From Streptococcus sp. M334 (GTDB lineage Bacteria > Bacillota > Bacilli > Lactobacillales > Streptococcaceae): 64,000 nucleotides of DNA. A model generated the notes under the pieces. It ran no database searches, was not told the DNA's origin, and saw only the letters and a list, made by a program, of their open reading frames with translations. The stretch's first letter is position 1. Each line of letters opens with the position of its first letter. Position numbers and translations under genes: made by a program. This document shows, piece after piece, positions 1 to 12,019 of the stretch. The DNA lies in NCBI RefSeq assembly GCF_000187745.1, contig NZ_GL732486.1:482736-546735 (forward strand). Reading direction: 5' to 3'.

Positions 1-2
1 TA

Positions 3-428
3 CTAGACCAAGATATAGAACTAGCTAAAAAATCCCTCTATACTGCCTATATCCAAAATGGAGAATGTGAAACCTCTGCTCAACTCTTGACCAATAAGGC
101 CTTTCTTAAAAATCCACTCAAGGCTCTGGTCGAGGAAAAATATGGGATTGAGTACGAAGAATTTACCAATCCTTGGCACGCTGCTGTTTCCAGCTTTGTT
201 GCCTTTTTCCTTGGAAGTTTGCCTCCAATGCTGTCAGTGACCATTTTCCCAAGTGATTACCGCATTCCAGCTACTGTCCTGATTGTAGGTCTTTCACTCT
301 TGATGACTGGCTACACTAGTGCCAAACTTGGAAAAGCCCCAACCAAAACAGCTATGATTCGTAACCTTGCTATTGGTCTCTTGACTATGGGAGTTACCTT
401 CTTACTCGGACAACTTTTCAGCATTTAA
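3..428 (+). CDS. VIT1/CCC1 family transporter, C-terminal part
   Basis: The reading frame is open from the window edge (first full codon at base 3), so the N-terminus lies outside and only about 141 residues are visible. Three hydrophobic segments follow a short polar region. The stretch around SFVAFFLGSLPPML, the second segment IPATVLIVGLSLL and the last one ending LLGQLFSI match the last membrane helices of the VIT1/CCC1 (DUF125) family of iron/manganese transporters. A metal substrate is family knowledge, not visible here. The TTG at 87 could be taken as a start but is internal. A BOX element begins right at the stop codon. The family call is fairly sure, the substrate is not. Confidence 0.75.
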   Translation, partial: LDQDIELAKKSLYTAYIQNGECETSAQLLTNKAFLKNPLKALVEEKYGIEYEEFTNPWHAAVSSFVAFFLGSLPPMLSVTIFPSDYRIPATVLIVGLSLLMTGYTSAKLGKAPTKTAMIRNLAIGLLTMGVTFLLGQLFSI

Positions 429-624
429 TACTCTTCGAAAATCTCTTCAAACCACGTCAGCGTTGCCTTGCCGTATATATGGTTACTGACTTCGTCAGTT
501 CTATCTGCAACCTCAAAACAGTGTTTTGAGCTGACTTCGTCAGTTCTATCTGCAACCTCAAAGCAGTGCTTTGAGCAACCTGCGGCTAGCTTCCTAGTTT
601 ACTTTTTGATTTTCATTGAGTATA
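428..624 (+). repeat. BOX element (A-B-B-C)
   Basis: Modular repeat of pneumococcus-group streptococci. boxA carries CTTGCCGTATATATG near 469-484. Two boxB copies follow, each with the GACTTCGTCAGTTCTATCTG core (starting about 488 and 533), then boxC, ending TTTCATTGAGTATA at 624. A second BOX in the opposite orientation lies at 60437-60634. Confidence 0.93.
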
Positions 625-633
625 AAATACAAG

Positions 634-668
634 AAATACCTCGATTTTGAAGTCGAGGTATCTTTTTT
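634..668. terminator. Bidirectional intrinsic terminator
   Basis: ATACCTCGA and TCGAGGTAT form a 9 bp stem around an 8-base loop, followed on the + strand by a seven-T run. It lies between the BOX element and the end of the convergent permease gene and can serve both. Confidence 0.85.
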
Positions 669-2656
669 TACATTTGTACAATCTTGCGATAGCTTCTAGA
701 AGTAATCATGAAAATCAGCACATAGGCGATGAGGAAGATAGCGCAGATAGACAAGGTCACAATCAACATCATAGTCGTATCTATTACACCAATCACTTTT
801 AAAATCAGACTAAGCATATGGTAGGCAAAGGCGAGATGTATGAAGGCAAAGAGCAAAGGAAGGAAGAAAACAGTTAAAACCTGTTTGTTGATGGTTTGCT
901 TGATTTGCTTTTGATCTAAACCGACTTTCTGCAAGATAATAAAGCGTTCACGGTCTTCATAACCTTCAGAAATTTGTTTGTAGTAGATGACCAGAACGGT
1001 TCCGACCATAAAGATAATGGATAGGAAAATACCGATAAAGAAGACACCACCAAAGAGGGCACTCATCTGAGCACTAGCATCTGCTAGATTGCTACCGTAA
1101 ACATAGCTACCTTCCGTGTTTAATTGAGCATTAAACTGATTGAGGTATTTATCATATTCTTCAGCGACCTTGAGTTGTTCTTCTTCACTGATATTTACAT
1201 TCATACCACCGTAAAACTGATTATAGATAGCCGAATCTGGGAATTGGTCAAAAAAGGCTTGTAAATTAGGTACAACAAGGTAATTGTAATCAGCAGTCAA
1301 AATATTAAACTGATTTGGAACATGGTTTACAATGAAATCTTTAGTAAATTCTTCTTTGACAGAAAATTGATGATCATTTAGAGTTAGAGCTTTCTGTTCT
1401 TTAACTCCCTCATTCTTTGCAAAGAGTCCGACCTCATTTCCTGATAGAGACAGTTTTTGGCCAGTCATATTTTCATAATCTTTTTGGTCAAATACCATGA
1501 AAACTGTTGTGGGTTGGACACGATTTTGTCCTTTTTCAAAAAGGGTTAACTTGCTACCTTCTTGGTTTGCAACACCAAAGTAAGCGTAACGAAGAACTTC
1601 TTTCTCTTTAATCTTATAACCTTTGTCACTTGCAAACTGGCTCAAGAGTTTGTCCAAATCTTCTTTTTCAACATTTTGCCCTGAAACCCCAAAATCATGA
1701 GGATTTAGAACTTTTTTAAAGCTTTCTGAGGCATTGAAAATGCTTGTCGCTGCTGACATGGTTACCAAAACCATTGTTGACAAGATAGCGATGGTTGCTA
1801 GCCCAACCGCATTTTTCTTCATACGAAAAATCAAGTTGGAAACAGAGATGAGGTTATTAGGTTGGTAATAGTATTTCTTGTTTTTCTTTAAGATTTGTAG
1901 GAAGACTGTAATTCCTGCATTAAACAAGAGATAAGTACCAAAGATAACCAGCAAAACAGCTAGGAAGAAAGTTGTTAGGGCTGTAAGAGGATCTTTTACA
2001 GTAAGGGAAAGATAGTATCCAATCCCTAAACTAATCGTACCAAGAATAGTTTGGAGAGATAGGAAACGACCTTTTTTCTCACCGCTAGCTTTCTCACGTG
2101 AGAGCTGGAGGGCATTCATACGGGCGATTCGAAGAGCATTCAGAAACATGAGACCTAGGAAAATCAAACCAAAGACAACAAGCACTGTAATGACAACTTT
2201 CATCTGGAAGGTAGCGACCAGCTCAACCTTCAATTTCATCAGTTTGAGTAGGAAAGCAAAAATCAACTTGTCAAACAAGGCTCCAATACCGATTCCTGCT
2301 CCAACAGTTAGCATTCCAAATAGCACTAACTCCTTAAAGGTCATACTGATTAGATGACGCTTCTCCAATCCCAACATGCCATAAATTCCCAGTTCCTTGG
2401 AACGGTTTTTCATAACAAAACTATTGGCATAGAGGACGATTATGGCAGACGCAAGGGTAACGACAAACATACCAAATCCAAGAGTAGCTTGAATCGTTTC
2501 ACCTCCACGGATTTCCGCAATCTTAGGATTAAAGGTTAGGGAGTAAAAGAGATAGGTGACAGTGACTGCCAAGAGAACAGCCAGCGCAAAAGGATAGTAG
2601 AGTTTGCGGTTTTTAATCAAGTTCGATACCGCTAACTTATTGGTTAATCGAAACAT
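668..2656 (-). CDS. BceB-type FtsX permease of a peptide-antibiotic ABC transporter
   Basis: 662 residues, the usual length of BceB/VraG/YxdM permeases. About ten membrane segments are visible: one near residues 20-40, three between about 55 and 180, two pairs between about 205 and 305, a large extracytoplasmic domain at about 307-525, and three helices at the C-terminus starting FGGVFFIGIFLSIIF. That topology with one large loop before the last three helices is diagnostic of the family, which senses and removes cell-wall-active peptides such as bacitracin together with a two-component system. The start lies 1 base after the stop of the ATPase gene, so the two are translationally linked. No two-component genes are present in the window. 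The actual antibiotic is inferred only. Confidence 0.9.
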   Translation of the reverse strand: MFRLTNKLAVSNLIKNRKLYYPFALAVLLAVTVTYLFYSLTFNPKIAEIRGGETIQATLGFGMFVVTLASAIIVLYANSFVMKNRSKELGIYGMLGLEKRHLISMTFKELVLFGMLTVGAGIGIGALFDKLIFAFLLKLMKLKVELVATFQMKVVITVLVVFGLIFLGLMFLNALRIARMNALQLSREKASGEKKGRFLSLQTILGTISLGIGYYLSLTVKDPLTALTTFFLAVLLVIFGTYLLFNAGITVFLQILKKNKKYYYQPNNLISVSNLIFRMKKNAVGLATIAILSTMVLVTMSAATSIFNASESFKKVLNPHDFGVSGQNVEKEDLDKLLSQFASDKGYKIKEKEVLRYAYFGVANQEGSKLTLFEKGQNRVQPTTVFMVFDQKDYENMTGQKLSLSGNEVGLFAKNEGVKEQKALTLNDHQFSVKEEFTKDFIVNHVPNQFNILTADYNYLVVPNLQAFFDQFPDSAIYNQFYGGMNVNISEEEQLKVAEEYDKYLNQFNAQLNTEGSYVYGSNLADASAQMSALFGGVFFIGIFLSIIFMVGTVLVIYYKQISEGYEDRERFIILQKVGLDQKQIKQTINKQVLTVFFLPLLFAFIHLAFAYHMLSLILKVIGVIDTTMMLIVTLSICAIFLIAYVLIFMITSRSYRKIVQM

Positions 2657-2657
2657 A

Positions 2658-3416
2658 CTAATTCACCTCGCTTGCCATGACAGTCAAGGTATCAGAGATT
2701 TCTTGGAACATCTGACGCTCTGTTTTCTCTCCACGGTAGATTTGGTTGTAAAGAATGCCGTCTTTGATAAAGAGTACACGTTTAGCTCTGCTAGCTGCTG
2801 CCGTTGAGTGGGTTACCATGAGAATGGTTTGGCCGCGCTCATTGATTTCATCAAAGACATCAAGTAAGGCTGCAGAGGACTTGGAGTCAAGAGCTCCTGT
2901 TGGCTCATCCGCAAGGAGAATTTCAGGTTCTGTAATGATGGCGCGGGCTACTGCTACACGCTGTTTCTGACCACCAGAAATCTCGTAAGGGTACTTCTCT
3001 TGTAATTGGTTGATGCCTAGATTCTCAGCTGTCACCACCAATTTCTTCATCATCTCCGTAATAGGTCTTCTTGACAAGACAAGCGGAAGCAAGATATTGT
3101 CTTTTACAGAGAGAGTATCTAGCAAATTAAAGTCTTGAAAGACAAAGCCCAACTTTTCACGACGGAAGCTAGAAGCCTGTGAATTTTTAATGGTTGCTGT
3201 ATCAGTTCCATTCAGGTAAACCTGACCACGACTTGGTTTATCCAGCATAGCTAGGATATTGAGAAGAGTTGATTTACCAGAACCAGACTCACCCATGATG
3301 GCAACGTAGTCGCCCTTTTCGACGGTAAAGTGAATATCCTTGAGAGCTTCTACTTGGTTGCCCTGAAAACGAGTTTTATAAATTTTTTGAACGTGTTTTA
3401 CATCTAAAAGTGTCAT
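2658..3416 (-). CDS. BceA-type ABC transporter ATP-binding protein
   Basis: 252 residues starting [11 protein letters not shown]. This start has AAGGAG ten bases upstream; a longer frame to 3473 exists but overlaps the small gene upstream. Walker [10 protein letters not shown] is at residues 42-50, followed by Q-loop VFQDFNLL, signature SGGQKQR, Walker B ILLADEP and the H-loop MVTHS, so all nucleotide-binding elements are intact. It belongs to the MacB/LolD/BceA group and energises the FtsX permease encoded directly after it. The pair probably confers bacitracin-type resistance, as for related pneumococcal and Bacillus systems. Confidence 0.93.
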
Positions 3417-3430
3417 GAGAATCTCCTTTC

Positions 3431-3541
3431 TTAATATCCCATCAAATGAAATGTCTCTTGCATCATAGCGCATCCCAGCTGAACGCGCTCGATATCTTTG
3501 TGGCTTGGTTTTCTTGTTTTCTTATGTAAGATTTGTTTCAT
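3431..3541 (-). CDS. Small basic protein, 36 aa, upstream of the ABC operon
   Basis: A 37-codon frame starting MKQILHKKTRKPSHKD and ending FHLMGY. It has a good Shine-Dalgarno (AAGGAG) seven bases before the ATG, and its end lies 14 bases before the ATPase start. The protein is basic and His-rich with no membrane segment or recognised domain. Position and ribosome binding site suggest a genuine first gene of the operon, either a small protein or a leader peptide coupling translation to the ATPase. Function unknown. Confidence 0.6.
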   Translation of the reverse strand: MKQILHKKTRKPSHKDIERVQLGCAMMQETFHLMGY

Positions 3542-3625
3542 GATGTTACTCCTTTGTTCTTTATGAGTCTAGTTTACATCAAAAAAAGACCGCTTGCCAT
3601 AACCTAACCTTACAAAAAAGACTTT

Positions 3626-3647
3626 AATCTTACATTTTTGTAAGATT
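3626..3647. promoter_or_regulatory. BceR-like operator upstream of the ABC operon
   Basis: A perfect 9 bp inverted repeat AATCTTACA-TTTT-TGTAAGATT. Its core TTACA-TTTT-TGTAA (3630-3643) fits the TnACA-N4-TGTnA pattern bound by BceR-type response regulators. It lies about 85 bases before the small first gene of the operon. The cognate regulator is not in this window. Confidence 0.6.
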
Positions 3648-3696
3648 GGGGGGAATTTAGAAATTTTATTAAAAATATTTTACCATAAAAAGAAGG

Positions 3697-3727
3697 CAAG
3701 AAGAAAACCCTTGCGGATACAAGGGTT
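3697..3727 (-). terminator. Intrinsic terminator after the AAA+ operon
   Basis: On the minus strand AACCCTTG and CAAGGGTT form an 8 bp stem with a 6-base loop, followed by TTCTTCTT. It lies about 75 bases downstream of the stop of the AAA+ ATPase gene. Confidence 0.7.
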
Positions 3728-3799
3728 CAGATTCGTAAATTGACTGCAACGGTCAATAATACATTCATAAACAGTTTGAAGATTCATTCTTTCGTTTGA

Positions 3800-4921
3800 T
3801 TATAAATCTATGTCACTAGAACAATTTTCATCTAAACAAAAATCATCTTTAATCAACAAAGTTAATTCTTTTAAATTCACATCTTCACTTTGGTTAAGTC
3901 GGACAGCTTGATTCATTATTAAATCCTCATATAGATTTCGAACAAAGCGACCGTTAGAAAAATTGGTGAGATTACTTTCTAACTTTTCATTAAAATAATT
4001 TAATAATACTTCTTTCAGCTTGTCATCTATATTGTAGTCGTCTTTTCTTGCTAATGTTTCAAAAATATCTAACAATTCTGTAGAAGAATAATTTTCAAAA
4101 TTAATAAAATAATTAAATCGAGATTTCAAACCAGGATTTGATTCAAAGAAATGGTTCATTGGTTCGGTATAACCAGCCACAATAACAATTAAATCATCTC
4201 GTGAATCTTCTAAAGCCTTTGTAAGTTCTGTTAAACATTCTCGCCCGTATGAATCAGTATTTTCATTTTCAGTAATACTATACGCCTCATCAATAAAGAG
4301 AACTCCACCTTTTGCCTTTTCTATGACATTTTTAACTTTCAGTGCAGTTTGTCCTTGGTAACCTGCAATTAAATCTGTTCTGGAGACTTCTAAAAAATGT
4401 CCTTTGGATAAAAGTCCCAATTGGTAGTACATTCTTCCAATAATTCTAGCAACAGTTGTTTTTCCTGTTCCTGGATTTCCCATAAAAGCCATGTGTAAAG
4501 TTCTTTTAGGAATATTTAAACCAGACTCTTTCCTTTTTGACTGAACTTTTTGATAAATAATTAAACGACTAACTTCTTTTTTTACCTTCTCTAAACCTAC
4601 TAACTGATTTAGTTCCACCAAAAGGTCGTCTAAAGATGATTTCTTTTGGTGACTTAGTTCTTTTTCCAAAGTATCAAATAGATAAGTATATCCAAGAAAA
4701 CTAGCTAGATTATCAGATAAATCTTTCAATAAAGGTGTAAGCTTGTTTCGTTTGTTAATTTGTTGTAATAAAAAAATAGATTTATACAATTCTGCTACTG
4801 ATTTTGTATCAGTATGATTTTCTATAATATTATTTACTTTATCAAGATAATTATTTTCTTTTCCAAAATAGAAGTCTAATTTCTTTGCACTACAAATTAA
4901 TTTATCTCGAGAAGTTGACAT
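3800..4921 (-). CDS. SpoVK/CbbX-like AAA+ ATPase
   Basis: 373 residues. The N-terminal 100 residues are helical with no recognised domain. The AAA+ module spans about 105-350: Walker A GNPGTGKTT at 148-156, a probable pore loop GYQGQT at 187-192, Walker B GVLFIDEAY at 206-214, sensor-1 region IVIVAGYTE at 245-253, and an arginine-finger region NPGLKSRF at 262-269. This order is typical of the SpoVK/CbbX/EccA branch of AAA+ proteins, which remodel protein partners. It is the last gene of a three-gene operon, 3 bases after the coiled-coil gene. Partners are presumably the two upstream membrane-linked proteins; the role is unknown and I infer a remodelling function only. Confidence 0.85.
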   Translation of the reverse strand: MSTSRDKLICSAKKLDFYFGKENNYLDKVNNIIENHTDTKSVAELYKSIFLLQQINKRNKLTPLLKDLSDNLASFLGYTYLFDTLEKELSHQKKSSLDDLLVELNQLVGLEKVKKEVSRLIIYQKVQSKRKESGLNIPKRTLHMAFMGNPGTGKTTVARIIGRMYYQLGLLSKGHFLEVSRTDLIAGYQGQTALKVKNVIEKAKGGVLFIDEAYSITENENTDSYGRECLTELTKALEDSRDDLIVIVAGYTEPMNHFFESNPGLKSRFNYFINFENYSSTELLDIFETLARKDDYNIDDKLKEVLLNYFNEKLESNLTNFSNGRFVRNLYEDLIMNQAVRLNQSEDVNLKELTLLIKDDFCLDENCSSDIDL

Positions 4922-4924
4922 ATC

Positions 4925-5647
4925 TTACCTCAATAACATGAAAAGCAAGGCAATCACTAACATACCAATAGAAATTCCAGAAACAATAAAGACTGTTAGA
5001 AGGCGATTTGAAATAAATTGAATTTGTTGTTTACTTTCATTTAATTCTCTCCTAAGTTGCTCAATTTCTCCAGTATTTGAAACTGGTTCTGAAGGAAGAG
5101 TACTTGCGAATTGTTCTAGATTTTCAAGTCTATCATTGAATTTAGAAAGCATTACTTCATGTTTTTCTATAGAGTTTTTGCTATTTTCTTCGTTAAGTTT
5201 CTCTTTGAACTGCTTAAGAGCTACTAGAGTTGCTTTCTGATTTTCAATCGTCTTTTGAAGACGTTCTTGTTCTCTTATAATTTTTTTATTTGTATGATCA
5301 ATTGCTGCCACTGAAGATAAAATTGCTTGAATATAATCTTTATCAAGAGCCTCCAAAGCTATATATACTTGACCAAATTCTTCTACCATCTTTTGTTGTC
5401 TCTCATAGAATTTTGAGAAATAATTTTGAATTTGCTCAACTAAGGTATTAAACTCATTTCCAGTCACTCCGTGTTCAGCAAATTCAAAACCAAAGAAATC
5501 TTCATGAGTTCTAACTCTATCAAAATAAAGTTCTTCTCCAATTTGCTCAGCAAATTCTTTTAGTTGTTCTTTAGCTTGGTCAAAATCATGTCTACTAATG
5601 TTTCCATTAAACGAATCTTGTTCTTGCTCAAATACTTCTTGGTCCAT
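4925..5647 (-). CDS. Tail-anchored coiled-coil protein of unknown function
   Basis: 240 residues. The first 60 are acidic and polar. From about 60 to 205 the protein is rich in E, K, Q and L with heptad-like spacing, so largely coiled coil. A single strong hydrophobic segment LLTVFIVSGISIGMLVIALL lies at about 217-236, right at the C-terminus, with no signal peptide. It would be a tail-anchored membrane protein with the coiled coil in the cytoplasm. It sits between the large membrane protein (10-base gap) and the AAA+ ATPase (3-base gap). I recognise no family. It could tether the ATPase to the membrane; that is inference from order and topology. Confidence 0.7.
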   Translation of the reverse strand: MDQEVFEQEQDSFNGNISRHDFDQAKEQLKEFAEQIGEELYFDRVRTHEDFFGFEFAEHGVTGNEFNTLVEQIQNYFSKFYERQQKMVEEFGQVYIALEALDKDYIQAILSSVAAIDHTNKKIIREQERLQKTIENQKATLVALKQFKEKLNEENSKNSIEKHEVMLSKFNDRLENLEQFASTLPSEPVSNTGEIEQLRRELNESKQQIQFISNRLLTVFIVSGISIGMLVIALLFMLLR

Positions 5648-5657
5648 ATTTTTCTCC

Positions 5658-7346
5658 TTAATCTAATAATTCTTGTAATAAAGTATCAATCTCATCAAAG
5701 TCACTTTTATCGTCTCTTGTAGATTCTGCAAAAATATCTGACAGCTTTTCTTTCATCATTGAAGCAGCTATATCATGTCTTTCCTTAATAGTATTGATAA
5801 CAGAATCTTTTTCAACTTGTAACTTTATACTCTTAACATCTAATAATTGATCTTGGATTACTAACATTTCATTATTTTGATCAATTTTCTTAGAATTTAG
5901 CTCGGAAATTTGTTTATTGACAATTTGCTGATCAATCATTTTTAGTACGAAAGCGCCAATAATTCCTGATAAAGTTGCTCCCATAAATGTTCCAATGACG
6001 CTACCGATTGTTCCCAAAAGTGGTATTGAAATAGCCAAAACTGGAAAACTTGCTGTGAGGGATGCTCCTAAAGCTTCCCCAACTACAATTGCACCTGTAG
6101 CTGTTAAACCCGCAACAATAATTTTTCCAACCTCTAACATCATAATATCAAGGCTTTTATCTTTATTTTCAGGATTATTTATATAATCTATTGCTTCTTT
6201 CAAAGATTTCCAACCTTGGTGTATAAAGGTCCAAGCTTTAAGAGCTGTATTAATTACAGGTCCAACAATTGCAGACGCAATCATTGTAACTACAGATTTA
6301 CCGACATTTAATACATGATTTGCTAAGTTATTTACAAAAGATATGATAGCCTCTTTTATTTTATCAATAAAAGTCGATAAGTTTCTTTCTGTATCTTTTA
6401 GCCAGGAGATAAATTTAGAAATCAATTCTCGCAAAAATTCTGATAATAACTGTAAAAGCGCTGCTTTCAAAGCTTTTCCGGAAATTTTTAATGCCTCATC
6501 GCGTCGTGATTTTTTACCTGATTGAATAGCTCGCTTCTCAGCCTCATCTCTCACTCTGTCGTATTCCGTGCGTGCCTCTTTATCTTTCTCTCTTAACTGT
6601 TTCTCTTCTTTTGAACTAATATTATGGACTTCTCTAGCATATTGTCCCTTAGAGTTTGGATTATCGAATAATTCTGATGTAGATAAATCTCCCTTCGCTT
6701 GATTAACCTCACTCCTAATTTCGTTAAGATTAGCTTTACTATTTGCAAAAGCAATCTGCTCTTCTTTTGTCAAAAAAGCATTTGCTTTTGGATCACGTAT
6801 AATCTCTCCAGCAGAAACTGTATGATCCATTTGGGTTCCTTTTTCTTTTGAACCTGTTGGCCTTCCGGTGTCAAATGGTTTTCTCGCTTCTTTGGTTAAA
6901 GTATTTACAATTTTACCTGAACGAGTTGAGTGTGTTTGAATATTTCCTAAGTCGTCTTTAACAAAATTATTTTGCCAAGTGTCGTATCTTTCTTGATAAT
7001 TAACATCTCTATTATGGGTTGCAAATTTACCTTTTTCAAAATTTTCAGCAGTTTGTATATGTGCTTCTTTTCGTAAATCTAGGGTTTGTCCGTTGTTCTC
7101 TTTAATAAACTCATCACCAATTTGTGCAGCAAGTTGAAGTTGTACTTGCTCCCAGACTATATTCTCAATAGATTCTTGAAGGTATTCATTATTTTGTAAT
7201 TTTTCCCTATCTAAATCAATTTTTTCTATATCTTTAATAAGATCTTTGAGATTATTTTCTAGAGAATTTTCTAAATTAAGCAATTGGTCGTATTCAAACT
7301 CTATATCTGATAATTGTAATGCGAGTAACTCATTTTCATTAGCCAT
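5658..7346 (-). CDS. Large membrane protein with possible HNH-like motif, first gene of an AAA+ operon
   Basis: 562 residues. An N-terminal coiled coil spans about 10-60. A charged globular part at about 75-250 contains MDHTVSA (D174-H175) and, downstream, FANSKANLN (N202, N206, N208), an arrangement like the DH...N core of HNH/colicin-type nucleases, but no second histidine is clear. Then come amphipathic helices at 290-385, a glycine/alanine-rich double membrane hairpin at about 405-470, and a helical acidic tail. There is no signal peptide. It is followed closely by the coiled-coil and AAA+ genes. The nuclease reading is a suggestion; membrane insertion is well supported. I recognise no named system. 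Codon use is A+T-rich like other accessory genes here. Confidence 0.65.
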   Translation of the reverse strand: MANENELLALQLSDIEFEYDQLLNLENSLENNLKDLIKDIEKIDLDREKLQNNEYLQESIENIVWEQVQLQLAAQIGDEFIKENNGQTLDLRKEAHIQTAENFEKGKFATHNRDVNYQERYDTWQNNFVKDDLGNIQTHSTRSGKIVNTLTKEARKPFDTGRPTGSKEKGTQMDHTVSAGEIIRDPKANAFLTKEEQIAFANSKANLNEIRSEVNQAKGDLSTSELFDNPNSKGQYAREVHNISSKEEKQLREKDKEARTEYDRVRDEAEKRAIQSGKKSRRDEALKISGKALKAALLQLLSEFLRELISKFISWLKDTERNLSTFIDKIKEAIISFVNNLANHVLNVGKSVVTMIASAIVGPVINTALKAWTFIHQGWKSLKEAIDYINNPENKDKSLDIMMLEVGKIIVAGLTATGAIVVGEALGASLTASFPVLAISIPLLGTIGSVIGTFMGATLSGIIGAFVLKMIDQQIVNKQISELNSKKIDQNNEMLVIQDQLLDVKSIKLQVEKDSVINTIKERHDIAASMMKEKLSDIFAESTRDDKSDFDEIDTLLQELLD

Positions 7347-7461
7347 AATCCATTTCCTGTCAAATTATTTTTATACGCTTATTATACCATTTAGCCATGA
7401 ATTCTGACAAGATGAAAAAAGCCTTGTCTTTTATAGTACAAAGCTTATTTTCTTATTTACC

Positions 7462-7734
7462 TCACCAAAACCATCCTTCATTATCGTCAATGGCTTGGGC
7501 TTCTTTGCGCTTACGTGGGCCTGTTCCATACATTTCTGCTTCGATTTCTTCCTTGGTTGGCATGATAGAAGCTAGGACGATATAGATAATCACGCCAAGT
7601 CCAAAGTTTGCAACTGTAAAAATGGCAAACAAAAAACGAACAAGGGTAACATCAAAGTTCCACTTGTCTGATAGACCTGCCAGAACTCCTGAAATCATGC
7701 GATTTCGTCTCATTTTATAAAATTTACTGTTCAT
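7462..7734 (-). CDS. PspC-domain membrane protein
   Basis: 90 residues from MNSKFYKMRRNRMISG; an upstream start at 7764 adds ten residues but is not needed. The basic N-terminus followed by GVLAGLSDKWNFDVTLVRFLFAIFTV and one membrane helix (about 35-58) is the phage-shock PspC domain, followed by a short charged tail ending EGWFW. Such stand-alone proteins occur in many streptococci and are thought to sense envelope stress. It is a single-gene unit between the accessory AAA+ operon and the SprT-like gene. Confidence 0.88.
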   Translation of the reverse strand: MNSKFYKMRRNRMISGVLAGLSDKWNFDVTLVRFLFAIFTVANFGLGVIIYIVLASIMPTKEEIEAEMYGTGPRKRKEAQAIDDNEGWFW

Positions 7735-7792
7735 GGTATTACCTCTTTCTACTAGGTTAGACATAGTATATCACGGGTAGGCTCGGCTTTCA

Positions 7793-8242
7793 TCAGTCCT
7801 CAGGCTGATTTACTAGTAGCAATTTACCTCGACAAAGTCCACAGCGATAGCGTTTGGTATCAATCCTTCGCTTGCGATGATAAGTTTGCTGGCAGGATTG
7901 GCAACGATAGAGCTTGATTGGCTTGGAGTTGCTATTGGGCAAGGGGGGCACAAAGCGTAATCCATCCACTGCTTTCAACAGTTCCTTAAAATCCCGATCC
8001 TTGTGTTGATAGCCCTTCCCTTGAAAATAGAGGTGATAATGACAGAGTTCATGGCGAACAATTTTCCTAAAAACATCCAAACCCAGTTCATCATAGACCT
8101 TGGGATTAAAATCCAAATGCCCATCTTTTGGGAAAAATCGCCCACCTGTCGTTCGTAGACGAGAATTCCACTGGGCTTGATGGATAAAAGGTCTTCCGAA
8201 GTCTTCTAGCGAAACTTTCTTGACGTAATCAGTTAGATTCAT
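7793..8242 (-). CDS. SprT-like zinc metallopeptidase family protein
   Basis: 149 residues. The HELCHYH motif at 64-70 provides the HExxH zinc site, and the C-terminus carries a zinc ribbon with two Cys pairs (CQSC and CGLC, about 20 residues apart). Length and layout fit the bacterial SprT family. The start overlaps the end of the tex frame by 14 bases, so the two are co-transcribed. The substrate is unknown; the eukaryotic relatives act on DNA-protein crosslinks, but that role is not shown here. Confidence 0.9.
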
Positions 8243-10358
8243 CTGGAGCTAGGAGCGACAGATTGACTTTTTCCCGTTCAGTATCGATTTTCTTAACCCA
8301 AACCGTTACCAAATCTCCAACTGACACCACTTGGCTAGGGTGTTTGATAAATTTGCGACTCATATGAGAAATGTGAATCAAGCCGTCCTCGTGAATCCCG
8401 ATATCAACGAAGGCTCCGAAGTCAACGACGTTACGAACCACACCTTCTAACTTCTGACCAACCACTAAATCCTTGATGTCTAGGACATCTTGGCGAAGTA
8501 CAGGTGCGTCAAAGGAATCACGGAAATCTCGACCTGGTTTGAGAAGGTCCGCAATGATATCTTTAAGAGTTTCTGGACCAAGGTCTAGCTCTTGCGCCAT
8601 TTCCTTGATTGATAGCGACTTGAGTTTGCCTTGGGCTTCTTCATTCAGGTTCTTGATATCCAAGCGTTTGAAGAGCTCCTTAACCGCAGCATAGTTTTCT
8701 GGGTGAACTCCTGTATTATCAAGGATATTGCTACTTTCTGGAATACGGAGGAAACCAGCAGCCTGTTCAAAAGCCTTGGCTCCCAGACGAGGAACCTTCT
8801 TGATTTGGGCGCGTGAAGTGATTTTTCCTTCTTCCTCACGGTATTTGACAATATTTTCAGAAATGGTTTTATTGAGTCCAGCAACATGGGAAAGCAGAGC
8901 TGGGCTGGCAGTATTGATATTGACACCGACTTGGTTGACCACGGTATCCACGACAAAGTCCAGACTTTCAGATAGTTTCTTCTGGCTGACATCGTGCTGG
9001 TACTGACCAACACCGATTGACTTAGGATCGATTTTGACCAATTCAGCAAGGGGATCTTGCAAACGACGGGCGATAGAGATGGCAGAGCGTTTTTCAACAG
9101 TCAAGTCTGGAAATTCCTGACGTGCAAGTTCACTAGCAGAATAGACAGAAGCACCACTTTCATTGACGATAACATAGCTGACTTCTGGAAAATCTTTAAG
9201 AACTTCCGCCACAAAGGCTTCACTTTCCCGACTGGCCGTTCCATTTCCGATGGCAATAATTTCCACGCCGTATTGACCAATCAAGTCGGCCAAATCTTTC
9301 TTAGCTTCTTCGATTTGACGAGCAGATGCTGGTTTGACAGGATAAATGACCTGTGTTGTCAGCATTTTTCCTGTTGCATCAACGACAGCTAACTTAGCAC
9401 CTGTACGAAAGGCAGGGTCAAATCCAAGAACCACGCGCCCTTTCAGCGGAGCAACCAAGAGGAGATTGCGCAGGTTGTCAGAAAAGAGTTGAATAGCTCC
9501 CTCTTCTGCCTTTTCAGTTAATTCTGTACGAATACGGCGCTCGATAGCAAGCAGGACTTTTTTCTTAACAGATTGCTGAACAACTTCATCTATATAGGCA
9601 TTTTTCACCTTGAAACGAGCAGCAAAGAAAGCTAGAATACGGTCCGTCGCATGTTCAAAACTGACCTTCAAAATTCCTAGTTTCTCCCCACGATTAAGCG
9701 CCAAGGTACGATAGCTCTGCATATTGCCAACGGTCTCTGAAAAATCATAATATATCTGAAAAACTTGTTTTTCATCAAGACTTTCATCCTTGACTTGAGA
9801 AGTAAGTTTAGAGTGTCTCAGCACCTCCTGATAAGTCATGGAACGCAAGGTCACATCTTCCGATAAGGCTTCAACCAAGATATCAACTGCACCAGCTAAA
9901 GCTTCCTTACCAGTCACAAATCCTTCACAGACAAACTTCTCAGCTTCTTTCTCTAAGTCAGCTACATTCTGCAAAATCAGGCGAGCAAGAGGAAAGAGTC
10001 CAGCTTCACGGGCAATGGTTGCCTTGGTTCGACGTTTTTCCTTGTAAGGAAGGTAGAGTTCTTCTACGTCGGCTAATTTTTCGGCAGATAAGATAGCTTC
10101 TTCCAATTCCTTGGTCAACTTACCTTGTTCTTGAATCTTAGCTAAGACAGCCTCCTTACGGTCGTTGAGGTTGGTCAGACTTTTATCCAAGTCAATAATA
10201 GCCTTAATCGCCACCTCATCCAGACTACCAGTCATGTCCTTGCGATAACGCGCGATAAAGGGAATAGTCGCCCCTTCAGCAGTCAAACTTAGAACGGTAT
10301 CAATTTGCTTTAACGTCACTCCCAAATCTTGGGAGATTTTTTCATATTTTTTATCCAT
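8229..10358 (-). CDS. tex: Tex family transcription accessory protein, S1 RNA-binding
   Basis: 709 residues from [13 protein letters not shown]; nine extra upstream residues to 10385 are unlikely. The N-terminal helical region is followed by a YqgF-like RNase H fold ([14 protein letters not shown]), helix-hairpin-helix repeats ([20 protein letters not shown]) and a C-terminal S1 domain ([20 protein letters not shown]). This is the full Tex architecture. Tex binds nucleic acids and influences gene expression and toxin production in other bacteria. It overlaps the SprT-like gene. Confidence 0.96.
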
Positions 10359-10459
10359 GAATCTATTATACCATAAGCCAAACATTTCAAATTAACTCGT
10401 AGAACATTTAAAAAATATGTAGGGAATAGATTTATATGCTATAGCGCAATAACTTGTAC

Positions 10460-11848
10460 TTATAGAGCATTGCCGCCTTTTTTTAACCAAGCCATGATAT
10501 CAAAAGTATTTAATGGATCAGACATAATAGCCAGTTCTGGAAGATGTTCCTGACCTGGAATAACACATTGACTTTTCAAATTTTTATATGGACGATTGAC
10601 TAAAATTAATTTGTTAGAATAAGGAAGATTATCCATCTTACTTAGAATTTCTTCACTAGCTGAATCTTTATTGTCAAATTTAAAATATAGATTATCCCAA
10701 TTTATGCGTTTTTTTCTTTTTTCCCACTTAGTCCGTGCTTCTTCAATACTAGAATAATGTAGAAAATGAATATCTATATCTCCTAAATGTCCCAAAGGAT
10801 AAACTTCATGAGTCCAGCTCGGTGAAATAAGTTCCTCTTCGAAAACAAGTTCTTGTTCCATATAATAACGAAAGTCCTTTGTAAGTTTATAATAATCATC
10901 AGGAAGAATAAATAAACCAACAAAAGGTGTTCTATATTGAAAACCAAGTTGTTTATAAATTAATCCTCCAACACAATTATTACTTATAATCGAAAAATCT
11001 AATCTATCAAGGTCAAGAAAAGGGAAAATTCCTTTCTCTGCAGCTATCAACTTATGATAAACAATTTCAGAATCTAAATGTTCACCGTCATTTTTTAACT
11101 GAGCACTAAAATTTGCTAATTCTTGAATATACTGTTTTTTCGCTATTTCTATATCATAGTTTTCTAAGACAGAGCAATCTTTGATTCTATTTTCATAATT
11201 TTCTAATATGATTTTGTAGGAGCCTTTTAGAGGTTTAGCATCTACAACAGGTTTATAGATATATGTCGGGAAATTAATATAGGTTGCAGTTTTAGAGTGA
11301 ATATAAAGTCTCCAAATAAGGTTGTTTATATCAAATTGATTTATTTTTCGTAAAAGCTTACTATTGAATAATTTTCCGAATAATGAGCAATATTGTTTTC
11401 TAATTCGATGATCTGTATCATCCATCTTTTGCAAAACTTGAACATTCGTTAAATTTTCTGTCAACCAATTATCCCCCCAAGGATAAAAGTAAAATACTCC
11501 ATCATTCAAATCAGCAAAATTACCAAGAACCACATCAGAATCGGATAATCTTATCGCATGATACATCTTTTCAAATGTCCAATCAAATAATGAATCATTT
11601 GAAGATAGAAACGTAATATAATCTCCTGTAATCATATCAGACAACTCAGAAAAAGAATTCTCATCTATAATCTTAATATTAAATGATAGATCCATCTGTT
11701 GGCTAATGGAAGCTATCTCCTCTGTAGATTGATTTACAATAATAACCTCTATATCTTTTAATGTTTGTCTTTCCACTATTGACAAAGACTCTAATAAACT
11801 ATTTCTGTCTCCTTGATGTAATAAAATAACACTGATTAAGCAAGTCAA
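10460..11848 (-). CDS. GT2 glycosyltransferase fused to a DUF1919 domain
   Basis: 462 residues. Residues 1 to about 200 form a family 2 glycosyltransferase domain: the start SVILLHQGDRNSLLESLSIV, EVIIVNQST, and DYITFLSSND where the usual DxD metal site is replaced by SND. From about 280 the DUF1919 signature appears (FSIISNNCVGGLIYKQLG, TPFVGLFILPDDY, HYSSIEEARTKWEKRKKRI), a domain seen in capsule/exopolysaccharide and protein-glycosylation loci. Both domains on one chain suggest a sugar or polymer-modifying enzyme. The gene is isolated, with A+T-rich composition, between tex and an unrelated operon, so it may be acquired. Confidence 0.75.
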   Translation of the reverse strand: MTCLISVILLHQGDRNSLLESLSIVERQTLKDIEVIIVNQSTEEIASISQQMDLSFNIKIIDENSFSELSDMITGDYITFLSSNDSLFDWTFEKMYHAIRLSDSDVVLGNFADLNDGVFYFYPWGDNWLTENLTNVQVLQKMDDTDHRIRKQYCSLFGKLFNSKLLRKINQFDINNLIWRLYIHSKTATYINFPTYIYKPVVDAKPLKGSYKIILENYENRIKDCSVLENYDIEIAKKQYIQELANFSAQLKNDGEHLDSEIVYHKLIAAEKGIFPFLDLDRLDFSIISNNCVGGLIYKQLGFQYRTPFVGLFILPDDYYKLTKDFRYYMEQELVFEEELISPSWTHEVYPLGHLGDIDIHFLHYSSIEEARTKWEKRKKRINWDNLYFKFDNKDSASEEILSKMDNLPYSNKLILVNRPYKNLKSQCVIPGQEHLPELAIMSDPLNTFDIMAWLKKGGNAL

Positions 11849-12019
11849 TTTTACTACCTCCCATAATCTTCTTTTTATTTAATTATATCACACTTATGAT
11901 ATATATCAGCTAATATCAAGCTATATTATCTATTAGCTACTCAATTTGAAATTTTAACTTTTTCCTTTTCCTCAAAATAATAGTATAATAGAGGTAGAAT
12001 TTAGAATCGAGGTACACCT

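Follow-up and report, generated by a model that had tools for sequence, protein, structure and literature searches.

Organization of the operon and its chromosomal site

A stretch of 64,000 nucleotides from Streptococcus sp. M334 (contig NZ_GL732486.1, positions 482,736 to 546,735; hereafter the window) was analyzed for a three-gene operon, referred to below as the trio. Open reading frame (ORF) reading revealed three intact genes on the minus strand, separated by intergenic gaps of 10 and 3 bases. Gene 1 (5658..7346, minus strand), delimited by ORF reading, alignment and structural models, encodes a 562-residue protein, here called the effector, which is composed of an N-terminal helical part, an HNH domain, a glycine-rich hydrophobic region and a C-terminal tail, in that order. 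Gene 2 (4925..5647, minus strand) was assigned by ORF reading and hydropathy to a tail-anchored coiled-coil protein of 240 residues, and gene 3 (3800..4921, minus strand) by ORF reading and profiles to a SpoVK/CbbX/EccA-like AAA+ ATPase of 373 residues. A stem-loop terminator with a T-rich tail (3705..3728, minus strand), identified by a terminator scan and by comparison with empty sites, was located 71 bases beyond the AAA+ stop codon; three terminator-like sites were found, two of them overlapping at 3728-3705, against 1.6 expected. The operon, its spacing and its terminator were therefore as a preliminary description of the window had given them. Upstream of gene 1, a candidate promoter (TTGTCA-18-TATAAT with a TG before the -10 element, 11 of 12 positions; 7381..7410, minus strand) was recognized by consensus match only, and it adds weak support, as 22 such sites were found compared with 18.3 in shuffles. 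In comparisons with three relatives that share its cassette type (see below), the ratio of nonsynonymous to synonymous substitution rates (dN/dS) was 0.05-0.28 for the genes and segments, with the exception of one N-terminal segment at 0.68 that rests on very few changes. As judged from these sequences, the trio genes are real, intact and under purifying selection.

The operon is flanked by pspC, sprT and tex on one side and by ABC transporter genes on the other, as had been proposed. The pspC neighbor was identified by Pfam PspC (68 bits), and sprT, tex and the ABC genes were assigned by eye with the help of relatives elsewhere. The search for pspC covered 59 relatives, and the 30 loci returned, including that of the window's own genome, were read. 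The effector gene followed pspC in the window's own genome, 20 other loci had different neighbors, and in nine of the 30 the site was empty, with the ABC ATPase gene directly after pspC. This comparison across relatives bore out the earlier suggestion of a likely insertion site. By eye, a terminator stem-loop after pspC was kept in eight of the nine empty sites, the exception being L034. Because it was kept there, the terminator is part of the site itself and did not arrive with the trio, and since the stem-loop follows pspC in the empty sites, insertion of the trio took place between pspC and the terminator of that gene. The by-eye comparison with the nine empty sites (L033-L037 and L040-L043) placed the approximate extent of the accessory insert from pspC to the ancestral terminator (3730..7455, minus strand), and no clear target duplication was seen at its ends. 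We also observed that the L034 site between pspC and the ABC ATPase gene was approximately 390 bp longer than that of L033 and had no terminator; this spot is therefore variable beyond the trio. On the basis of these alignments, the trio is an accessory operon that was gained or lost at the pspC site.

Among 197 Streptococcus genomes, 13, counting that of the window, gave a match to the effector by profile or by sequence; one of these matches (L021) was weak (E 3.7e-4), with no coiled-coil or AAA+ gene adjoining. Sampling of the phylum gave a match in 6 of 398 genomes, strong in two (the window's genome and one other), and sampling of the order gave 16 of 295, comprising five strong trio effectors and weaker, partly unrelated proteins. 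One search found 5,520 of 7,996 scored candidate proteins to be related to the effector. The empty sites and the 13 of 197 Streptococcus genomes rule out a core housekeeping unit; conservation of the trio in all strains, which the preliminary description had named as an observation that would speak against its reading, was thus not seen.

The recurrence of the three genes was counted over genomes and records in which the effector match was strong, each represented by a single locus (n = 31, some of which may duplicate the strain of a genome already in the set), leaving out relatives that lack the AAA+ gene (AAA-less relatives). The order effector, coiled-coil protein and AAA+ ATPase on one strand was found in 29 of these loci; of the other two, L028 breaks off within gene 2 and L031 has no more than a fragment. 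Three of the 29 ordered trios (L099, L110 and L095) contain split genes. The hosts are Streptococcus, in which other species carry the trio at other sites, two Lactococcus plasmids, Calidifontibacillus, metagenome-assembled genomes of Lachnospira and Oscillospiraceae, and two IMG/VR contigs. The effector had no match among 50,697 phage records. The two IMG/VR contigs (L084 and L085) hold the whole trio next to serine-recombinase-like genes, two or three of which lie beside the trio on one of them, and this arrangement fits a mobile accessory element; the trio may be carried by phage-like or other mobile elements. On one of the two contigs, phage-like genes were also seen upstream by eye.

The predicted HNH nuclease and its exchangeable cassette

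The effector had been noted for D174-H175 with downstream asparagines in an HNH-like order, and the alignments confirmed this arrangement through N202, N206 and N215. D174-H175 (6822..6827, minus strand) form the first pair of the motif, and N206-L207 together with N215 to K218 (6693..6731, minus strand) form the rest in an alignment of 27 rows. D174, H175 and N202 were kept in at least 90% of the 27 domain sequences and N206, N215 and K218 in all of them; these last three residues were also the sole invariant columns of a 50-row effector alignment. In the full effector model, the confident part comprised residues 91-280, with ten-residue means of 79-94. Residues 100-262 modeled alone reached a predicted local distance difference test score (pLDDT) of 92.4 and a predicted template modeling score (pTM) of 0.85, and revealed a strand holding D174-H175, a second strand from residue 207 and a helix carrying N215 and K218. 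A beta-beta-alpha fold carrying the HNH motif is thus predicted with high confidence.

Foldseek matches to this domain were individually weak, although nearly all of the leading ones were HNH/beta-beta-alpha-metal nucleases. In particular, 17 of the best 18 rows were titled Vvn/Vibrio endonuclease I, Cas9 or its HNH domain, BrxU or Cas5-HNH, and the remaining row, 7el1, had an unspecific title. A second structural comparison of 32 rows drawn from Foldseek's own candidates also returned nucleases or Cas9 complexes except for 7el1. The whole-protein fold search gave long-helix matches, none of them at E <= 0.001. No family of weight was found for the effector or the coiled-coil protein in Pfam, NCBIfam, PHROGs and PADLOC, and no curated HNH profile matched the window's protein; a relative found with the effector family profile at E 4e-7 (L067) passed GmrSD_C with 32.6 bits (cut-off 23). 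The HNH reading is therefore supported by conserved residues, predicted fold and structural matches, and we found neither a known assignment of the 562-residue family nor a predicted fold devoid of nuclease or pore features. The names 'cation diffusion facilitator' and 'AI-2E transporter' borne by relatives were rejected, as no such family was matched in the Pfam lists of 54 members; the hydrophobic part gave weak matches (E 8e-5 and 4e-4) to two proteins that by eye look like real AI-2E transporters (L079 and L080).

Variants of the motif were also observed. An otherwise complete effector in a three-gene operon (L068/L092) has DE in place of DH and is possibly an inactive nuclease, and a further cassette type (L017 and L085) has EH. 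The C-terminal HNH domains of secreted-toxin-like proteins (L066 and L075-L078) matched the same profile at E 1.8e-5 to 3.5e-7, two of these proteins with sub-threshold pre-toxin TG matches; this HNH type is therefore common to a candidate defence effector and toxin-like proteins.

Effector identities between alleles were scored in 40-residue windows. The effector of the window and its counterpart in S. mitis 850 (L024) were 88-100% identical at window starts 1-81 and 281-521, in contrast to 28-45% at starts 121-241, where the DNA was 49-60% alike. The same pattern was found with L070 and L071 from two other genomes, with 30-42% identity at starts 101-221. Additionally, the L024 cassette was 75-98% identical to the cassettes of L026 and L071, while the membrane parts of those two effectors (starts 281-401) were 50-70% like that of L024. 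Synonymous divergence (dS) was 1.3-2.5 inside the cassette compared with 0.09-0.20 outside, which indicates that this block was exchanged by recombination. From the identity windows, the model and dS, the HNH nuclease cassette was delimited to approximately residues 106-262 (6561..7031, minus strand); within one cassette type, its dN/dS was 0.05-0.15. The coiled-coil and AAA+ genes of the pair L093/L094, from the same genomes as L070/L071, were 87-99% identical in DNA, and neither partner was therefore exchanged along with the nuclease. For the coiled-coil gene of the window, dS was 0.35-0.44 against L022, L025 and L024, compared with mostly 0.04-0.11 for the rest outside the cassette, a divergence that shows a separate replacement of this gene.

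The predicted membrane region, the tail and the AAA+ motor

Residues 345-472 of the effector (5931..6314, minus strand) contain several glycine-rich hydrophobic stretches by hydropathy; the model is poor over this region, and membrane insertion is therefore predicted only. The C-terminal tail follows at approximately residues 495-562 (5661..5864, minus strand), where a shuffle test and a tail hidden Markov model (HMM) point to a probable handle for the AAA+ protein. At least eight operons encode a further small protein between genes 1 and 2, with N-terminal hydrophobic segments in all three that were checked. Seven were compared with the effector tail, which the C-terminus of the small protein resembles, and six of the seven pairs beat all 1,000 shuffles; in the seventh (L027), whose small ORF stops early, 207 of 1,000 shuffles reached the score and the HMM gave E 7e-4. 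Built from 15 trio effectors, the tail HMM matched all seven small membrane proteins (E 7e-4 to 1e-11) and, of the four trio effectors that had been set aside, all but L016; it matched none of seven AAA-less relatives, and the best of 339 background ORFs scored E 0.05. As the tail is found on the small proteins and was undetected in the seven AAA-less relatives, it goes with the AAA+ gene, and the effector tail is likely what the AAA+ ring holds.

Hydropathy of the second protein showed a single strong hydrophobic segment at its C-terminus, predicted to be transmembrane (residues 211-240; 4928..5017, minus strand), in agreement with its earlier description as tail-anchored; the protein has 240 residues here and is longer elsewhere. 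The SpoVK/CbbX-like nature proposed for the third protein was likewise upheld by matches to AAA (68 bits) and AAA_lid_6 (56 bits) and by its Walker A, Walker B and arginine regions. It scored 280, 229 and 233 bits against the SpoVK, CbbX and EccA models, whose cut-offs are 423, 459 and 467 bits; as all three equivalog cut-offs were missed, we place it near this clade and do not file it as an orthologue of SpoVK, CbbX or EccA. Its closest solved relatives by sequence were CbbX (E 6e-54) and EccA1 (E 1.4e-46). Walker A (GNPGTGKTT, 4454..4480, minus strand; residue 148), a pore-loop-like YQGQT (188), Walker B (208) and the arginine region (262) were kept or nearly kept across 15 aligned AAA+ sequences. 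Hydropathy revealed no hydrophobic segment in the AAA+ protein, and the PADLOC TRIP13 models matched it weakly (2.8e-5).

Link to defence, alternative explanations and known systems

The AAA-less relatives L072, L088-L090, L063, L065 and L067, among them proteins of Variovorax (L088), Photobacterium (L089) and Paraclostridium (L090), matched the PADLOC models PDC-M40B or PDC-M09B at 5.9e-88 to 4.5e-6. Alignment by hhalign of the trio effector profile with a profile of five AAA-less relatives, all of which match PDC-M40B (1e-15 to 5.9e-88), gave a probability of 99.9% and E 2.2e-33 over 374 columns (residues 53-473). PDC-M40B matched a trio member directly (L019, 1.8e-13); searched against genomes, it recovered the trio effector from 10 of 16 that carry the trio and gave no match in 14 controls. 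It did not match the window's effector; as the profiles agree, this effector is a relative and is not filed as PDC-M40. The partner of L072 (in L108) matched PDC-M09A at 1.9e-92.

The surroundings of these genes were also inspected. By Pfam, a WYL regulator lies directly upstream of the effector in L097 and another beside the effector in L108; WYL regulators were seen by eye near AAA-less effectors in L104 and L105. TerB was found near the AAA-less effector in L104 (Pfam 35.7 bits), with a similar gene in L105. Type I restriction-modification genes lie approximately 2.7 kb from the trio on pUC073A, one of the two Lactococcus plasmid copies, a Sau3AI-type enzyme lies three genes from the AAA-less effector of L090, and a gene annotated csm6 lies approximately 3.6 kb from that of L089. 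A dynamin-type GTPase was observed near the AAA-less effector in L106 (Pfam 35.3 bits) and, by eye, a second in L108.

A neighbor scan compared 118 of 124 proteins from 12 focal loci (eight trio, four AAA-less; six proteins, two from each of L092, L105 and L106, were removed by hand) with 120 of 304 proteins from 20 control regions of 10 genomes (G762 and G639 had no control region). At E <= 1e-12, 57 PADLOC families were matched from the focal set and 23 from the controls, counted as families rather than proteins, and 25 of the 57 were listed. WYL was matched by three focal proteins and by no control protein among the matches listed, and AbiEi and AbiEii by one focal protein each; the controls matched type IIG restriction-modification, MzaA, reverse transcriptase and Csm6-type proteins. 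On these raw family counts the enrichment is weak and suggestive only, since the controls hold defence genes too. Seven of ten single neighbors scanned against PADLOC had no match.

Two observations concern other neighboring sequences. In L098, a DUF2130 protein (10750-12018; Pfam 296 bits) is encoded directly upstream of the effector, and by eye two related genomes (L018 and L020) seem to share this arrangement. Beside the ABC genes, at 468-650 of the window and before 15007 of L023, spurious ORFs built from a recurring TSSVLSATSKQCFE-like unit reveal short tandem DNA repeats; these repeats apparently have more copies in L023.

On this evidence, the operon most likely acts in defence against phage or foreign DNA, a role that we consider probable. 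Incoming DNA, from phage or from other sources, would be cut by the HNH nuclease, which is predicted to be embedded in the membrane, and the coiled-coil partner and the CbbX-like AAA+ motor would hold it in check or release it. The nuclease would face the cytoplasm, the motor would likely pull on its C-terminal tail, and the tail-anchored coiled-coil protein may be a scaffold or sensor. Phage or foreign DNA would be the trigger; as to direction, we would guess that the effector is kept disassembled by the AAA+ ring and that infection disturbs this state. Cassette exchange may reflect shifts in target preference or evasion of inhibitors encoded by phages.

A gatekeeper that acts on plasmids or transforming DNA, in anti-conjugation or in the processing of imported DNA, instead of on phage, appears unlikely. 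Many streptococci are naturally competent, and a membrane-tethered nuclease in streptococci, together with plasmid and island locations with recombinases, would suit such a function. However, no competence gene was recognized by eye among the neighborhoods listed, the homologous proteins are catalogued as phage-defence candidates, and the occurrence on the two IMG/VR contigs indicates that the trio also travels with phage-like elements.

The preliminary description had left phage defence and interbacterial killing side by side; the homology to proteins matching PDC-M40B and PDC-M09B favors the former, and killing is disfavored. A secreted or contact-dependent toxin, in which the HNH protein is exported to kill neighbors and the AAA+ protein acts like the type VII secretion chaperone EccA, is in our view improbable. 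The closeness of the AAA+ protein to EccA and EccA1, the shared HNH type of the toxin-like proteins and the cassette exchange typical of polymorphic toxins would be expected for it, and the type VII secretion protein EssB was found in 9 of 16 trio genomes. EssB had no match in the window's genome and six others of the 16, however, and dependence on that system was rejected on this ground. No secretion domain was matched in the effector, nor was pre-toxin or LXG in Pfam, although its N-terminal 100 residues are of unassigned function; the partner is predicted to be tail-anchored and the motor lacks a hydrophobic segment. The cassette is internal, and the L093/L094 partners were unchanged on its swap, which cassette-specific immunity would not allow. 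Least probable, and remote in our estimate, is an abortive-infection pore in which a glycine-rich hairpin permeabilizes the membrane once the AAA+ protein releases it and the HNH domain senses DNA: the glycine-rich segments and a low-confidence helix likeness to alpha-pore toxins and colicin Ia, common for long helices, fit it, but the only invariant effector columns are HNH residues and the cassette dN/dS is low within one type.

The defence role thus remains our preferred reading. Whether the operon further represents a new class of immune device, in which a membrane HNH nuclease with an exchangeable cassette is controlled by a CbbX-like ring threading its tail, with a small tail-bearing membrane protein as competitor or regulator of that ring, is a tentative proposal that we hold with some doubt. 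The analysis provides a testable role for an effector family recorded as 'hypothetical' or as transporters and for its unnamed partner, places proteins that match two unexplained PADLOC candidates in a single nuclease superfamily, and supplies a tractable example in which an AAA+ remodeller would control a nuclease through a tail common to two proteins.

Among the literature matches listed, we found no description of the trio layout, in keeping with the initial view that no named system has it, and none of PDC-M40 or PDC-M09: no literature on 'PDC-M40' was found, 'PDC-M09' was absent from the literature holding 'phage defence candidate', and the PDC matches listed were mostly unrelated uses of the abbreviation. 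Passages of the DefensePredictor paper found by term describe no such system (PMC13092281), and a passage of another source applies the PADLOC label 'phage defence candidate' in S. thermophilus (PMC11514479). The proteins matching the PDC-M40 and PDC-M09 B models share the HNH and glycine-rich hydrophobic parts with the trio effector (residues 53-473). In contrast, the AAA-less relatives among them have no such AAA+ gene adjoining in the stretches read and no detectable tail, and they are paired with other partners, for example a PDC-M09A protein and a TerB protein; TerB is listed among Shango and Bunzi components in part of one source (PMC10952713). The GmrSD/BrxU type IV restriction systems, with their DUF1524 HNH, provide the nearest characterized HNH by Pfam (through L067) and are among the structural matches, and the same source places DUF1524 in GmrSD, BrxU and SspE (PMC10952713). 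Unlike these, none of 54 family members matched DUF262, and a hydrophobic region and an AAA+ partner are found instead. No McrB GTPase or McrC nuclease was noticed by eye among the ORFs of window positions 1-12000, for which no profile search was made. The motor shares AAA plus AAA_lid_6, Walker A and B and the arginine region with CbbX, SpoVK and EccA, although the partners are different; CbbX pulls on the C-terminal tail of Rubisco. In cyclic oligonucleotide-based antiphage signaling systems (CBASS), the AAA+ remodeller Trip13/Cap6 controls a nuclease effector in defence, and the likeness of the trio to CBASS lies in this principle, not in sequence membership. The closest layout among the literature matches is that of the type III-A CoCoNuT extension, in which a tandem ATPase of SpoVK type adjoins a glycine-zipper protein (PMC11090510). 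The trio is similar in having a SpoVK-type ATPase next to such a protein; the difference is that the CoCoNuT ATPase has tandem domains and accompanies CoCoNuT and vWA genes, whereas that of the trio has a single AAA domain and accompanies an HNH effector (PMC11090510).

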